From Vicinamibacteria bacterium (GTDB lineage: Bacteria; Acidobacteriota; Vicinamibacteria; Fen-336), in contig JAICEW010000004.1 in the NCBI GenBank assembly GCA_025923995.1, positions 1 to 56,499 of the forward strand: a DNA stretch of 56,499 bases. The letters run 5' to 3'. Numbering within the stretch: the first letter of the stretch is position 1; every line of letters begins with the position of its first letter. The notes beneath the pieces are model-generated. The model was given only the letters and a program-made list of their open reading frames with translations. It was not told the origin of the DNA and did not search any database. A program made the position numbers and the translations under genes. Below, in pieces: positions 4,215-24,162 of this stretch.

Positions 4215-4910
4215 ATGAGCGACCCGTCCCTCCCCGCCGAGCGCCCGGCGGACGACCACCGCGACCGCCGCCGCGCCATCCTGGAGACGGCCGCGCGCCT
4301 CATCTGCGAGCGGGGCTACGAGGGGACCTCCATCCAGGACATCGCGGCCGCCTGCCAGCTCACGAAGGCCGGGCTGTACCACCACATCCGCAGCAAGGAG
4401 CACCTGCTGCTGGAGATCATGAACTACGGGATGGACATCTTCGAGGACTCGGTGCTGACGCCCGTCCTGCCCATCCTGGACCCGCTGGAGCGGCTCACGG
4501 CCTGCATGGAGCGCAACCTCATGCTGGTGACCGAGACCCGCAGCAAGGAAGTGACGATCATCCTCCACGAGCACAACACGCTGACCGGCGAGGCGCGGGT
4601 CCACATCGACGCGCGCAAGAAGCGCTACGTGCGCATGCTGGAGGCGTCCTTCGGCGAGGCGATGCGGGAGGGCCGCATCCGCGCGGTGAACCCCACGGTG
4701 GCCGCCTTCTCGTTCCTGGGCATGGTGCTGTGGACCTACAAGTGGTACAGGCCCGAGGGCTCCATCTCGCGGGAGACGCTGGCACGGGAGATGGTCTCGC
4801 TCTTCTTCGGCGGGCTCGTCACCCGGCGCCTGCCGCGACGGCCCGGGCCGCGCCGGCGCGCGGCCGTCCCCTCTCAGTCGCGGCGCAAGCCGCGGCGCCG
4901 CGCGCGCTGA
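4215..4910 (+). CDS. TetR/AcrR family transcriptional regulator
   Basis: 231 residues. The N-terminal helix-turn-helix is typical of TetR (about residues 20-65: RRAILETAARLICERGYEG, then TSIQDIAAACQLTKAGLYHH and IRSKEHLLLEI). The C-terminal ligand-binding half resembles the KstR2/FadR-type regulators of lipid and CoA-thioester metabolism, but the effector cannot be read from sequence. An arginine-rich tail of about 35 residues follows the conserved part. No Shine-Dalgarno is visible and a -10-like hexamer lies just upstream, so the mRNA may be leaderless. It diverges from the exonuclease gene across 26 bp, a layout compatible with autoregulation. Its 3' end overlaps the convergent membrane-protein gene by 37 bp. 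Confidence 0.9.
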   Translation: MSDPSLPAERPADDHRDRRRAILETAARLICERGYEGTSIQDIAAACQLTKAGLYHHIRSKEHLLLEIMNYGMDIFEDSVLTPVLPILDPLERLTACMERNLMLVTETRSKEVTIILHEHNTLTGEARVHIDARKKRYVRMLEASFGEAMREGRIRAVNPTVAAFSFLGMVLWTYKWYRPEGSISRETLAREMVSLFFGGLVTRRLPRRPGPRRRAAVPSQSRRKPRRRAR

Positions 4911-9590: not shown

Positions 9591-10784
9591 CTACTCCCGC
9601 TTCCGCGGCGGATCGAAGAACGGAAGCGCGGTGACGGTGACGCCCACCCGCTTGCGCTGGTGGTCGATCGTGAAGTCCATGTCGAGGTCGGTGCCCGGCG
9701 CGGACACGTTCGTCGAAACCGTCGCGAGCGCGATCAGCTTCTTGAGCGTCGGCGACCAGGTGCTGCTGGTGGCCTTGCCGACCTGCTGCTCGCCGTCCCA
9801 CACCGGCACCGACAGGCGCGACGCGGTCGCGGGCAGCTGGGGCGGCAGGCCCGCCTCGTCGTGCAGCCGCTCGAGGTCGTCCCAGTCGACCGCGAGCCCC
9901 ACCAGCTGGCGCGCTGGGCCGCGCGCGACCTCGCGGCGCAGCGCGGCCTGGCCGACGAAGGGCGCCTTGTCCAGGTGGACGAGGCGCCCGAGGCCGATCT
10001 CGTACGGCGAGTAGCGCTGCGAGCCGGTGAGCGCCTTCTTCGCGCCGACGTAGTCGACGTCGAGCAGGATGAGGCCCGCCTCGATGCGGGCCATGTCGAG
10101 CGCGAGCAGGCCGATGGGGGTGATGTCCCACGGCGCGCCGGCGGCCATGAGCGCGTCCCAGACCGGCTCGGCGGACGCGGCGTCGACCCAGATCTCGTAG
10201 CCGAGGTCGCCCGTGTAGCCCGTGCGCGAGATCTCGACCGGGACGCCGGCGATGCGCGCGCGCGTCAGCCGGAAATAGCGCAGCGACGCGACGTCCGTGT
10301 CCGCCTCGGCGCAGGCGGCGAGGATGGCGCGGCTGGTCGGTCCCTGCAGCGCGAGCGCGGCGGTCTTCTCCGACACGTCCTCGATGCGCACGTCGAGCCC
10401 GGTCGCGTTCATCGTGATCCAGCGCAGGTTGGGCTCGGCGGCGGTCCAGCGGTACACGTCGTCCCCCAGCCGCTGCACGGTGCCGTCGTCGATGACCTTG
10501 CCTTCCGCGTCGCACCAGTTCGTGTACGCGACCTGGCCGACCTGGACCTTGTTCATGTCGCGCGTGACGACGCGGTCCACCAGCCGGCGCGCGTCGCGGC
10601 CGGACACGCGGTACTTGAAGAGCGGCGAGACGTCGAGCAGGCCCGCGGCCTGGCGGATCGCGTTGTACTCGCGCTCCGGTGTCGTCTCGTAGCTGGTGAC
10701 CGCGAAGTAGCCGGCCCAGTCCTTCCAGCCCAGGTTGTGGTTGAGGGCCGCGGTGCGCGAGTGGAACGGCGTGGGTACCGGCAT
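9591..10784 (-). CDS. GcvT-family (aminomethyltransferase-like) folate-binding protein
   Basis: 397 residues resembling the glycine-cleavage T protein throughout. Family features seen are AGLLDVSPLFKYRVSG near residue 50, the conserved acidic loop GKVIDDGTVQRL, the ALQGPTSR segment, and SRTGYTGDLGYEIW at about residue 210, followed by the C-terminal barrel domain (about 290-390). True GcvT transfers an aminomethyl group to tetrahydrofolate. Here there is no gcvH or gcvP nearby, so it may instead be a DmdA-like or O-demethylase-like member of the family acting on another methyl donor. The ATG at 10784 has no Shine-Dalgarno, but a good -10-like TATCAT sits eight bases upstream. It converges with the TPR membrane protein. 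Confidence 0.88.
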   Translation of the reverse strand: MPVPTPFHSRTAALNHNLGWKDWAGYFAVTSYETTPEREYNAIRQAAGLLDVSPLFKYRVSGRDARRLVDRVVTRDMNKVQVGQVAYTNWCDAEGKVIDDGTVQRLGDDVYRWTAAEPNLRWITMNATGLDVRIEDVSEKTAALALQGPTSRAILAACAEADTDVASLRYFRLTRARIAGVPVEISRTGYTGDLGYEIWVDAASAEPVWDALMAAGAPWDITPIGLLALDMARIEAGLILLDVDYVGAKKALTGSQRYSPYEIGLGRLVHLDKAPFVGQAALRREVARGPARQLVGLAVDWDDLERLHDEAGLPPQLPATASRLSVPVWDGEQQVGKATSSTWSPTLKKLIALATVSTNVSAPGTDLDMDFTIDHQRKRVGVTVTALPFFDPPRKRE

Positions 10785-16163: not shown

Positions 16164-16820
16164 GTGAAGAAGACCGCGTGGATCGCTGCGTGCCTTGTCG
16201 TCGTCAGTCCTATGCTGTCGGCCGTCGGCGCCGCGGAGAGCAGCCGCCGGGGCCAGAACCGCGTCGAGGCGAGGGTCGTTCCCCCCGAGCCGCAATTCTT
16301 CGGCACGGTCACCTACGACACCGGCACCAACGCCGGGTTCCACCCGGACGGAACGAACGGTGGGAACGCGAACCGCACTGTCGGTAACCGCTTCAACTCG
16401 GCCCTGGGCGGACCACTGCTCATGACGGGCATGGTCACGATGCTGACGGCCTTCCCGGCCAGCAACGGCATCCAGTCGGTCTCGATCGCGACGACGCCCA
16501 CTCCGGCCAACACCGCGACCGTGGTCGCCTTCGTCAACGCCAGCCTCATGGCGGGACAGTTCAACGCGGTGCCGATCGCCGCGACCGTGCCGCCGGACTT
16601 CCTGGGGATCTTCGTGGGGGCCTTCAACAACACCAACCCCGCGGGCCTGCTCGGCATGTCCGACATGGCCAACGGCAACCAGGGCTACCACGCCATCCAG
16701 GCGTTCTACGCGGCCGGGGCGCAGACCATGATCGAGGTCGTGCCCAACCGCAACGCCATGATCCGCGCGACCGGCGACATCCTGGTGCCGGTCGAGCTGA
16801 TGGACTTCAAGATCCAGTAG
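16164..16820 (+). CDS. Secreted protein of unknown function, YDTGTN family, copy 1
   Basis: 218 residues from GTG 16164, supported by the Shine-Dalgarno AGGAGGGG. MKKTAWIAACLVVVSPMLSA is a signal peptide, probably cleaved after VGA. The mature protein is rich in Asn, Thr and Gly with no lysine-rich or catalytic pattern. The core motif is FGTVTYDTGTNAGFHPD, followed by RTVGNRFNSA, LLMTGMV, GYHAIQAFYAAG, VPNRNAM and the C-terminal ILVPVELMDFKIQ. It aligns end to end with 23467-24162. The small, beta-rich, cysteine-free composition suggests an extracellular or surface protein, but the function is unknown. A good terminator follows. Confidence 0.85.
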   Translation: MKKTAWIAACLVVVSPMLSAVGAAESSRRGQNRVEARVVPPEPQFFGTVTYDTGTNAGFHPDGTNGGNANRTVGNRFNSALGGPLLMTGMVTMLTAFPASNGIQSVSIATTPTPANTATVVAFVNASLMAGQFNAVPIAATVPPDFLGIFVGAFNNTNPAGLLGMSDMANGNQGYHAIQAFYAAGAQTMIEVVPNRNAMIRATGDILVPVELMDFKIQ

Positions 16821-21500: not shown

Positions 21501-21624
21501 CTACCAGCAGACCGCGCGCGAGGGCCTGGAGGTGATGGAGCGCGTCCAGGCCGCGACCGGCACGCCGCCACCCGGCGGCCTGCGCGAGAGGCTGCTCAGG
21601 GGGTCCGCGGGGCCGCTTCCCTGA
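18583..21624 (+). CDS. Membrane-embedded spermidine-synthase-like protein with TPR-like C-terminus
   Basis: 1013 residues from GTG 18583, chosen because the first membrane helix follows directly; a GTG at 18526 would add 19 residues. About twelve membrane segments (residues about 1-450) resemble MFS-like membrane parts fused to spermidine synthase. A Rossmann methyltransferase/aminopropyltransferase domain follows (about 470-690): VVGLGAGKT for the nucleotide loop, DVVELEPEIV, NDARSALLL and DAIVSQPSHPWTAGAAH. The usual catalytic Asp context of spermidine synthase is altered, so polyamine synthesis is doubtful. The last 300 residues are Ala/Arg-rich helical repeats. The 3' end overlaps the convergent gene by 29 bp. 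Confidence 0.82.
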   Translation: MRPPLRFALLLGCFLLSGMAGLVYQTAWTQQFALTFGASELAVVAVLAAYMAGLTAGAAAGEAWLRAVRRPVLAYALLELGIAASALAVPALLGLANRIQVALLGGVDALPEAGGALTVLFHLAAAFAILLLPTALMGATLPLLARYVVVRDADLAARVGTLYTVNTVGAALGTLGAGFLLLPRLGLGRTVWAGVALNALAFLLATPLFRSTAVVREASPDEEPLAHRYLLPLMLLSSAVSFTYEVLWTRLLTFVLGGSVYAFSTMLATFLAGIAIGAGVAARLGRTPAAARRGFGIAQWGTAAFSLVAFRFADHLPRLAERLSGAGTGPLLAGAALSAATLLPGALCIGATFPFAVRALATHAGQAGAATARAYAWSTVGAVLGAVVGGLWVLPALAFEGTVRALAAASLLTAVGCALLGRPRLRPLAALAVVSLLAPLLIPPRAPWRLLRHSMLPGRTEGAVVYRGVGRGATVLVLDQGGEYRLSSNGLPESAIEGPGSRPSRYAVAHWLSLLAVAARPEARSLMVVGLGAGKTVENVPPSIASIDVVELEPEIVRANLALSGRRGRDPFRDPRVRVHLNDARSALLLTERRFDAIVSQPSHPWTAGAAHLFTREFFELTRDRLGDDGVFVLWMGQAFVDEPLLRSLLATLRSVYPHVEVYDPRPGGSLLFVSATRPLRMEETAGRAIAAAPATWAAQGVMTTVDVLAARVADEEGVARVAEGAPVNTDRRNLLQTRSPRILASALGAAGADRVFAPYDPVRRLAAGPEGPRLVQRYIRDGRLRRARRVLGAMPAGPSRRVASARIDLAAGAQARGESELLALVRERPPDRDAARALMVARGDALLRGEDPDGLLGVLAHDPLAAGVLEGWRRSAAGRLADVAELEPVLAGAARHDPLEEPALRLRIGWRLTSGDPARAREAIALFDPFMAEAAKAPDALLRARLALAARDAATAYASLIEIADLGLYVSDYQQTAREGLEVMERVQAATGTPPPGGLRERLLRGSAGPLP

Positions 21625-23362
21625 CGGCGGGCTCGACGGGCGAGCGCGGGTCCCCCGGGGGCACGGGCGCGCGGGCCAGGGCGTCGATGCCGGCCAGCAG
21701 GTCGGCCACGGCCTGCTCGACGATCTTCTCGCCCTTGTGCCAGGTCGCGAGCGTGGGATCGCCGAAGACGCCGGACGGCGCGAAGTGCCCGCCCTTGCCG
21801 CGGTCGCGGGTGAGCGGGCCGCTCGAGGCACCCCCGCCGTCCGCCACCGCCTTGTCCATGCGCACGGTGCCCGGCCGCATGTAGAGGACCATCGACGTCT
21901 CGATCTCGTCCGCGTGCGTGCCGTACTCCTGCTCGCGCACCGCGTCCTCCGCCGCCTTCCCGATCTGGAGCACGTCGGAGAAGTGCAGCGCGATGCCCTC
22001 CTGCGCCAGCAGCTCGGCCGTGGCCTGGAGCGGACGCGCCGTGGAGACGCCCGTGTTGAGCACGTAGAAGCGGCGCGGGCCGTGCCGCGCCACGCTGCGT
22101 ACGATCTGCGCGATCGCGTCGCGCTGCGTCTCGAACGACAGCGACGTCGATCCGGGGAAGTCCAGGAACGCGGGATAGAAGCCGTAGGTCAGCGTCGGCA
22201 GCATCGCCACGTCGCGGGCCGCCAGCACGCGGCCGGCGTAGTACTCGGCCAGGATCTCGTCGTTGCGCAGCGTGAGGTGCGGGCCGTGCTCCTTCGCCGC
22301 CGCGCCCAGCGGGAGCACCACGACGCGCTCGGGCGTCAGCACCTTCTCCGCTTCCGTCCACGGCACGTCGGCGAGGCGCACGCCGGGGCGAGCGGACGAC
22401 GCCACGCGCTCCGGCAGGTAACGCTTGGGGAACTTGGCCACGACGGTGTAGACGGGGTCCACCACGTTCGCGACGCGCACCACCGCGACCTGCGACACGA
22501 GCTGGTAGGCGTCCGCCTTGTCGAACCCGTGGTCGGCGACGAGCCAGTCGATGAGCTCCACGAAGGCGATCCGCAGCGCGTCGGTCAGCGGCCGCGTGCT
22601 GCCCGCGACCATGAGGTGCTCGGCGTCCTCGAAGCGGGGCCAGGCGATCGCCCGCTTCTTCAGGAGCCCGAAGCGGAAGGCCACGTCCATCGAGGTCTCG
22701 AGCCCCGAGCCACACACCTCGCCATCGCCCTGGAGGGCGTGGCCGTCGCCGAAGTAGAACAGCGCGCCGGGATGGTACACGGGCAGGTAGACGGTCGTGC
22801 CCTCGCGCACGTCCGAGGCGTCCAGGTTCCCGCCGAGGGGCCCGGGCCACAGGCCGCCGAACTCCTCCTCTCCGGACGGCGCCACGGCCACGCGGCCCAG
22901 CATGGGCGCGAGCGGCACGGTGACCGACTTCATCCGGCTGCCGGGCAGGTCCACCGTGCCCGTCATGCGCTGGCGGTCCAGCCGCCAGACATAGCGCCCC
23001 GTCGGGAACGGGTCGTTGAGGAACGCAGTGCGCGAGTCCGGGACGAGGGCCCCGAAGCGCCCGCCCTGGGTGGACACAGCGGTGTCGCGGTTGGGACGCA
23101 CCTTCAGCACCTCGACCACCAGCGTGTCGCCCGGCTCGGCTCCCTCGATCGCGATGGGGCCGACCTCGCCGGGCCACTTCGCGCCGGGCTTCTCGTACCA
23201 CTCGCCCCACAGCGACTCGCTCTCCAGCACGTCGCCCGGCTTGACGGTCAGGACGGGCGGGCGCACGGCGAACGTGGCGTGCCCGACCGTCGGCTTCAGG
23301 CGATGGGTCTCGGCCGCCGCCGCGGCCGGCAGCAGCGCGGCCAGCACGAGCACGTGTCGCAT
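21596..23362 (-). CDS. Secreted acetamidase/formamidase-creatininase fusion protein
   Basis: 588 residues. Signal peptide MRHVLVLAALLPAAAAA, then a full FmdA/AmdA-type acetamidase/formamidase domain (about 20-320: VKPGDVLESESLWGEW, GDTLVVEV, YHPGALFYFGDGHALQGDGE). A creatininase domain follows (about 335-575): metal-ligand motif EHGPHLTLRND, then THADEIETSMVLYM. The usual NGHGGN loop of creatininases reads NTGVST, so one metal-binding or substrate residue is changed. Both families hydrolyse amides or ureido compounds and are normally separate cytoplasmic enzymes. A secreted fusion suggests periplasmic hydrolysis of a cyclic or formylated amide; the substrate is unknown. Start ATG 23362 has Shine-Dalgarno AGGAGG and a TACAAT -10 upstream. 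Confidence 0.85.
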   Translation of the reverse strand: MRHVLVLAALLPAAAAAETHRLKPTVGHATFAVRPPVLTVKPGDVLESESLWGEWYEKPGAKWPGEVGPIAIEGAEPGDTLVVEVLKVRPNRDTAVSTQGGRFGALVPDSRTAFLNDPFPTGRYVWRLDRQRMTGTVDLPGSRMKSVTVPLAPMLGRVAVAPSGEEEFGGLWPGPLGGNLDASDVREGTTVYLPVYHPGALFYFGDGHALQGDGEVCGSGLETSMDVAFRFGLLKKRAIAWPRFEDAEHLMVAGSTRPLTDALRIAFVELIDWLVADHGFDKADAYQLVSQVAVVRVANVVDPVYTVVAKFPKRYLPERVASSARPGVRLADVPWTEAEKVLTPERVVVLPLGAAAKEHGPHLTLRNDEILAEYYAGRVLAARDVAMLPTLTYGFYPAFLDFPGSTSLSFETQRDAIAQIVRSVARHGPRRFYVLNTGVSTARPLQATAELLAQEGIALHFSDVLQIGKAAEDAVREQEYGTHADEIETSMVLYMRPGTVRMDKAVADGGGASSGPLTRDRGKGGHFAPSGVFGDPTLATWHKGEKIVEQAVADLLAGIDALARAPVPPGDPRSPVEPAVREAAPRTP

Positions 23363-23426: not shown

Positions 23427-23466
23427 CCCTTCGACGTCGTGCCCGACTCCCCCGAGGAGGTGTGTG

Positions 23467-24162
23467 GTGAGGAAGACGGCGTGCGTCGTGGTCGGGCTGC
23501 TGCTGTCGGGCACGCACACGCCGGGCGCCGACCGCCCCGCCCGCACGCGCGACGAGGCGAAGAGGGTGCAGGGCAAGGTGGTTCCCCACGAGCCCCAGCC
23601 CCTCTCCCGCACCCCTCAACGGATCTTCGGCACGATCACCTACGACACCGGCACCAACTCTGGGTTCCATCCGGACGTGTTCGCTGGAGCGGCGAACCTG
23701 AACCGGACGGTCGGCAACCGCTTCAACAGCGCCTACACCCTGCCGCTGCTCATGACCGGCATGGTCTGGAGGCTGACGGTCTTCCCGGCGAACGACGGGG
23801 ACCAGTCCGTCTCCATCGCCGACACGCCGACGAGCATGAACACCGCGATGGTCCTCGTCTTCGTGAACGCCCCGCTCATGGCGAACCAGTTCAACGCCGT
23901 CGACCTGACCCCGGGCGTCTGGGTCGGGCCGGACTTCCTGGGCCTGTTCATCGGGCAGTTCAACGCCGCGCAGACCGTCCTGCTGGGCATGTCGGACATG
24001 TCGATCCTGGGGCAGGGCTTTCACGCCATCCAGGCGTTCTACACCACGGAGGGCGGCGGGTTGCAGACCATGATCGACATGGTCCCCAACCGGAACGCGA
24101 TGCTGCGCGCGAACGTCGACATCCTGGTGCCGGTGGAGCTGATGGACTTCCGCATCCAGTAG
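23467..24162 (+). CDS. Secreted protein of unknown function, YDTGTN family, copy 2
   Basis: 231 residues from GTG 23467, six bases after GAGGAGG; the GTG at 23464 is a weaker alternative. The signal peptide is MRKTACVVVGLLLSGTHTPG with likely cleavage after PGA. The mature part matches 16164-16820 over its whole length: FGTITYDTGTNSGFHPD, NRTVGNRFNSA, LLMTGMV, PDFLGLFIGQFN, GMSDM, FHAIQAFYTT, VPNRNAML and the C-terminal ILVPVELMDFRIQ. Copy 2 has a slightly longer linker after the signal peptide and a short Gly insert near the end. Function unknown. The two copies lie about 7 kb apart in the same orientation. Confidence 0.85.
   Translation: MRKTACVVVGLLLSGTHTPGADRPARTRDEAKRVQGKVVPHEPQPLSRTPQRIFGTITYDTGTNSGFHPDVFAGAANLNRTVGNRFNSAYTLPLLMTGMVWRLTVFPANDGDQSVSIADTPTSMNTAMVLVFVNAPLMANQFNAVDLTPGVWVGPDFLGLFIGQFNAAQTVLLGMSDMSILGQGFHAIQAFYTTEGGGLQTMIDMVPNRNAMLRANVDILVPVELMDFRIQ

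Follow-up and report, generated by a model that had tools for sequence, protein, structure and literature searches.

Creatininases are hexamers. Their metal ligands, which we take to be E34, H36, D45, H120 and E122, were reportedly assigned their roles from the creatininase structure of Yoshimoto in 2004. Among the creatininase relatives (PF02633), BrbF from riboflavin synthesis is a formamide hydrolase (PMC9478397), and the homologs of formamidase and acetamidase (PF03069) comprise lactamases besides amidases (PMC5353710, PMC10781810). Here, we describe a gene from a Vicinamibacteria bacterium that joins the PF03069 and PF02633 families in one polypeptide, a type of fusion for which our literature search found no paper. 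The gene occupies positions 21596-23362 of the reverse strand of the window, i.e. the whole stretch of 56,499 nucleotides that was analyzed. We propose that it probably encodes an exported two-domain amidohydrolase, born from the joining of two separately secreted acidobacterial families, with independent, co-localized activities and a changed site in its creatininase half.

A fusion of two amidohydrolase families with an export signal

The gene is a single stop-free frame of 588 residues. Pfam recognized in it FmdA_AmdA (6.5e-29, 101.4 bits against a gathering threshold of 27), with the best stretch at residues 177-302 and a second stretch, and Creatininase (1.9e-47, 162.2 bits against 31.3) at residues 332-557. 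When PDB sequences were searched with phmmer, residues 35-316 aligned with the Yersinia acetamidase 5ubu (2.1e-52) and residues 329-555 with Pseudomonas creatininases. E-values this low rule out chance for both family matches, and the frame together with these matches bears out the first-pass annotation, which had read an amidase and a creatininase in one polypeptide. In each half, mismatches with the ortholog of the related genome G002 are concentrated at the third codon position (30/21/104 at positions 1/2/3 for FmdA, 54/47/88 for creatininase), so the frame is genuine on either side of the junction. A frameshift or an assembly artefact is ruled out by these mismatches and by the homologs.

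From its N-terminus, the protein consists of a signal peptide (residues 1-18, MRHVLVLAALLPAAAAAE; 23309-23362), an acetamidase/formamidase domain (residues 19-318; 22409-23308), a linker at about residues 319-326 (22385-22408) and a creatininase domain of what we call the NTG-type (residues 327-565; 21668-22384), all on the reverse strand. Both domains are delimited by Pfam, by alignment with PDB entries and by fold matches. The region of the linker (residues 319-329) shows 36-64% identity.

By inspection, the N-terminus MRHVLVLAALLPAAAAA followed by E reads as a signal peptide with probable cleavage after A17. It is found in the same place in the three other genomes that carry the fusion, and residues 1-14 have a pLDDT below 50 in the structure model. 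By its sequence, the protein is thus apparently exported, as had been proposed, and the mature fusion would be periplasmic. The two families had also been described as normally cytoplasmic. However, the nearest standalone FmdA relatives in the phylum (16 examined) have a hydrophobic signal-like N-terminal stretch, as have most standalone NTG-type creatininases, the exceptions being the one of G042 and a Nitratireductor protein; several canonical creatininases in the same comparison start directly at the domain. These assignments come from a crude nine-residue hydropathy window and inspection and are indicative. They suggest that exported PF03069 members are common in these Acidobacteriota and that the premise of a cytoplasmic localization can be set aside, at any rate in the lineages from which the fusion arose.

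The FmdA half keeps the family motifs GGN.D (177-181) and GD.HA..GDGE (205-215), which are shared with 5ubu, 2f4l and 2ii1. They lie within GGNLDASD (residues 177-184; 22811-22834) and GDGHALQGDGEVCGSGLE (residues 205-222; 22697-22750), both on the reverse strand. Its modeled fold matches 5ubu (TMt 0.79) and 2f4l (TMt 0.90), and this fold as well as both core motifs are common to the PF03069 family (5ubu, 2f4l, 3tkk, 2ii1 and the lactamase 2wkn). Unlike these proteins, the FmdA half is joined to a second hydrolase, and its 54 bits are far short of the 500 required by NF045496, the equivalog for formamidases. Considering its family and its intact motifs, it would most likely act outside the cytoplasm, on a small amide or on a lactam that it hydrolyzes.

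Distribution of the fusion and separability of its halves

The first-pass annotation had called for a search for other fusions. The genomes of relatives yielded complete orthologs in G002 (76% identity) and G007 (74%). In G010, two pieces were found at contig ends, covering residues 9-374 (83%) and 480-569 (63%), as expected if one gene had been cut by a contig gap. Including the genome of the window, the carriers are four acidobacterial species from three genera of one family (f1). Outside this family, no fusion was detected among 193 genomes of the class at E <= 1e-55, nor in a sample of 396 genomes of the phylum, and no place in plasmid records covered 80% of it. In these collections, the fusion is a pairing of already known enzyme families that is specific to one lineage. 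It had been anticipated that a fusion found only here, with halves lacking intact metal sites, would speak against the proposed function; the fusion recurs, and the loss of the canonical metal site is true of the creatininase half.

Each half also exists alone. At a locus syntenic with that of the fusion, G004 encodes a protein of 296 residues with only a signal peptide and a creatininase domain (67-70% identity). Conversely, G389 and G539, from family f11, encode an FmdA protein that is 82% identical to the FmdA half of the window and ends approximately at the point at which a linker would start. Whether G004 represents the pre-fusion state cannot be read from the creatininase tree, because the placement of the fusions in one clade gave a p-AU of 0.458. 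An eight-gene genome tree puts G004 among the fusion carriers, which form one clade in 8% of bootstraps, and this favors a secondary loss of FmdA in G004, without proving it. A pre-fusion state of G004 is accordingly disfavored by the genome tree, and single-domain trees do not decide. As for the FmdA proteins of G389 and G539, they are nested in the fusion clade (94/91), and a sister placement is not rejected (p-AU 0.099). Whichever history holds, either half persists in these genomes without the other.

A prediction of the domain interface had been suggested as well. In the structure model, the domains are confident (mean pLDDT 89.9), the linker falls below a pLDDT of 50 at residues 320-323 and the pTM is 0.59. 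These values give no sign of a fixed packing; they fit, as weak evidence, two domains that would lack a fixed interface.

The creatininase half and the NTG-type subfamily

The modeled fold of the C-terminal half matches that of the Pseudomonas creatininase 3a6j (TMt 0.79). Alignment to chain 1j2t and to the family places E34 at K357, Q35 at E358, H36 at H359, D45 at D368, H120 at G438, E122 at S440, H178 at H483 and E183 at E488. The position of E122, and only this one, is anchored by a PDB entry titled 'E122Q mutant', whose sequence reads NGHYQN. The corresponding motifs are KEHGPHL (residues 357-363; 22274-22294), NTGVST (residues 436-441; 22040-22057), which replaces NGH(Y/G)(E/G)N, and THADEIETS (residues 482-490; 21893-21919), in which D485 is subfamily-specific; all are on the reverse strand. 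EHGPHL, NTGVST and HADEIETS were correctly placed by the first-pass annotation, which was also right that the NGHGGN loop is gone. It overlooked the lysine in place of E34 and one extra residue before KEHG. Of the five ligands that make up the canonical two-metal site, three are therefore replaced (E34 by K, H120 by G and E122 by S), and H36 and D45 are kept, as are the catalytic H178 and E183. The half shares its fold and these four retained residues with Pseudomonas creatininase (1j2t/3a6j) but differs from it by the three replacements, the insertion and the export signal. It falls short of the cut-offs of the creatininase equivalog TIGR04448 (77 bits against 235) and of the mycofactocin peptidase MftE, TIGR03964 (80.7 bits against 172).

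Is this site remodeled or decaying? K357, E358, H359, D368, N436, T437, H483, D485, E486 and E488 are invariant in 11 clade-A and four clade-B sequences, and among the clade-A sequences are the standalone proteins from G004, G245, G159, G358, G068, G097, G249 and G192. Four of these residues (K357, E358, D485 and E486) are new invariants of the 15 sequences. The same signature recurs in the alphaproteobacterial protein WP_113156695.1 ('Creatininase family protein') from the Nitratireductor plasmid pOM-1, as KEHGHAL, LNTGVST and GHGDEHETS; unlike the fusion, this protein has neither a signal peptide nor an FmdA domain. Since H36, D45, H178 and E183 are kept and four other positions have become invariant, the site is remodeled rather than decaying, and remodeling is further favored because the same replacements occur in two phyla. 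Judged by these alignments, NTG-type creatininases form a coherent subfamily, with members among the Acidobacteriota and in at least one alphaproteobacterium.

Selection was estimated as dN/dS (NG86). Against the G002 ortholog, the ratio was about 0.13 for the FmdA half and 0.43 for the creatininase half, and over all comparisons with the gene of the window and between fusions it was about 0.11-0.19 and 0.31-0.43, respectively, the fusion pairs spanning about 0.13-0.19 and 0.32-0.43 and the comparison with G010 giving 0.11 for the FmdA half; these ratios are rough, synonymous sites being partly saturated and the genome GC-rich. The dN of the creatininase half is about three times that of the FmdA half. 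These comparisons indicate that purifying selection acts on both halves, the creatininase half being constrained though more tolerant of change.

Several observations concern other creatininase-like proteins. In G360, the equivalents of H359, D368 and E488 are also lost; the protein concerned (L138:7916-9358), which is exported and joins an NTG-type creatininase with a SnoaL/DUF4440-like domain, may be a pseudoenzyme. The Nitratireductor gene (L164:2995-3774) shares its operon with an oligopeptide ABC transporter and with a gene related to beta-eliminating lyases, a possible route to its substrate. No conserved neighbors were seen around the standalone NTG-type genes. Lastly, two proteins of about 766 residues (L051:4773-7079 and L052:3140-5440) carry a canonical creatininase domain at their C-terminus, preceded by about 500 residues in which Pfam recognizes nothing, and the genes beside them resemble by eye the enolase superfamily.

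Genomic neighborhood and possible function

In G002, G007 and G010, the fusion follows a tryptophan 2,3-dioxygenase (TDO) gene and a gene for a small membrane protein, with overlapping genes in G007, and in G004 the lone creatininase takes its place in the same order. An attractive idea would then be that the fusion hydrolyzes the N-formylkynurenine made by the neighboring TDO, all the more as formamides are substrates for members of both families. However, G005, G008 and G013 have the same TDO locus but lack the fusion. In the genome of the window, TDO is encoded on a different contig (C146), where its neighbor is a kynureninase-like gene, and the small membrane protein on yet another (C25). 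In addition, every fusion-carrying genome encodes elsewhere a KynB-like cyclase of about 210 residues (the copy of the window's genome reaches 184 bits against the TIGR03035 cut-off of 223), and TDO is cytoplasmic whereas the fusion is exported. With a linkage to TDO in four genomes but not in that of the window, and a KynB-like gene at hand, a role as the missing kynurenine formamidase was dropped. The TDO neighbor would rather reflect local synteny, and we give a functional link little chance, a place in tryptophan catabolism being most unlikely. The small membrane protein was likewise rejected as a functional partner, since genomes that lack the fusion have it too, in an unlinked position.

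Just as improbable is the pathway put forward by the first-pass annotation, a two-step process of the periplasm in which the creatininase half would open a cyclic amide and the FmdA half would remove the formyl or amide group. Enzyme fusion often signals linked function, and this one has been kept in at least four species. Yet the pathway is without positive support because each half is also found alone in close relatives (G004 on the one hand, G389 and G539 on the other), and further points against it are the model, which gives no sign of a fixed packing, a canonical metal site that is not conserved and the finding that the conserved neighbors of the fusion include neither a transporter nor a gene for a downstream step of such a pathway. 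Moreover, attributing ring opening to the creatininase and deformylation to FmdA is arbitrary: this order is one of several, because lactamases occur among the FmdA homologs and a formamide hydrolase among the creatininase homologs, so that both reactions are within reach of either family (PMC5353710, PMC9478397).

One would also wonder whether the creatininase half is an enzyme at all. It could be a pseudoenzyme without catalytic activity, serving to bind a ligand or to hold the oligomer together, and FmdA would then be the sole enzyme. A weakened or non-catalytic half is possible in view of its faster dN and of the further degeneration in G360, to which the replacement of three metal ligands out of five can be added. 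On the other hand, the four retained residues, the invariance of K357, E358, D485 and E486 over two clades, the recurrence of the signature in another phylum and purifying selection argue against it, and in G004 the creatininase survives with no fused enzyme to support; we thus hold this hypothesis to be rather unlikely. About as doubtful is a bolder hypothesis concerning the whole cross-phylum subfamily: the two-metal site could have been rebuilt around the invariant K357, together with E358 and D485. The resulting amidohydrolase would work with one metal or none on a new substrate, and in the exported fusion FmdA would be its partner, a second amidase, for an extracellular amide not yet described. 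The reading that we prefer remains that of two acidobacterial families, each secreted alone, which would have been joined into one exported protein. The creatininase half would most likely still break C-N bonds, either by means of a single metal or with the lysine taking over part of the work of a metal, and the fusion would co-localize two independent activities, neither of which was seen to feed the other.

The domain pairing as such is a lineage-specific curiosity, the more useful lead being the NTG-type subfamily. If active, its members would show a well-studied metal hydrolase fold working with a different site. The label 'creatininase family protein' on such genes does not mean creatinine metabolism.

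A few other features of these loci can be mentioned. A GcvT-like aminomethyltransferase gene (9591-10784, reverse strand) has similar counterparts close to the fusion (G010 and G002) or to the lone creatininase (G004), and together with a TetR-like regulator (4215-4910) it is common to the window and the G004 locus; it would be a neighbor by position, from which we draw no functional link. Short TDOs of about 268 residues (L048:7319-8125, L049:8760-9572 and L040:2092-2901), of which the G002 one is under the TIGR03036 cut-off, differ from the longer type of G000 and G004, both types occurring in this bacterial family. Two similar hypothetical proteins, neither with a Pfam match, are encoded on the forward strand at 16212-16820 (TVTYDTGTNAGFHPD...) and 23464-24162 (TITYDTGTNSGFHPD...), the second divergently from the fusion gene. 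Finally, the region 24298-56258 resembles a polysaccharide locus, most of its genes being read by eye, with asparagine synthase, acyl-carrier-like, NAD-synthase-like, chain-length and tyrosine-kinase-like, and glycosyltransferase-like genes.
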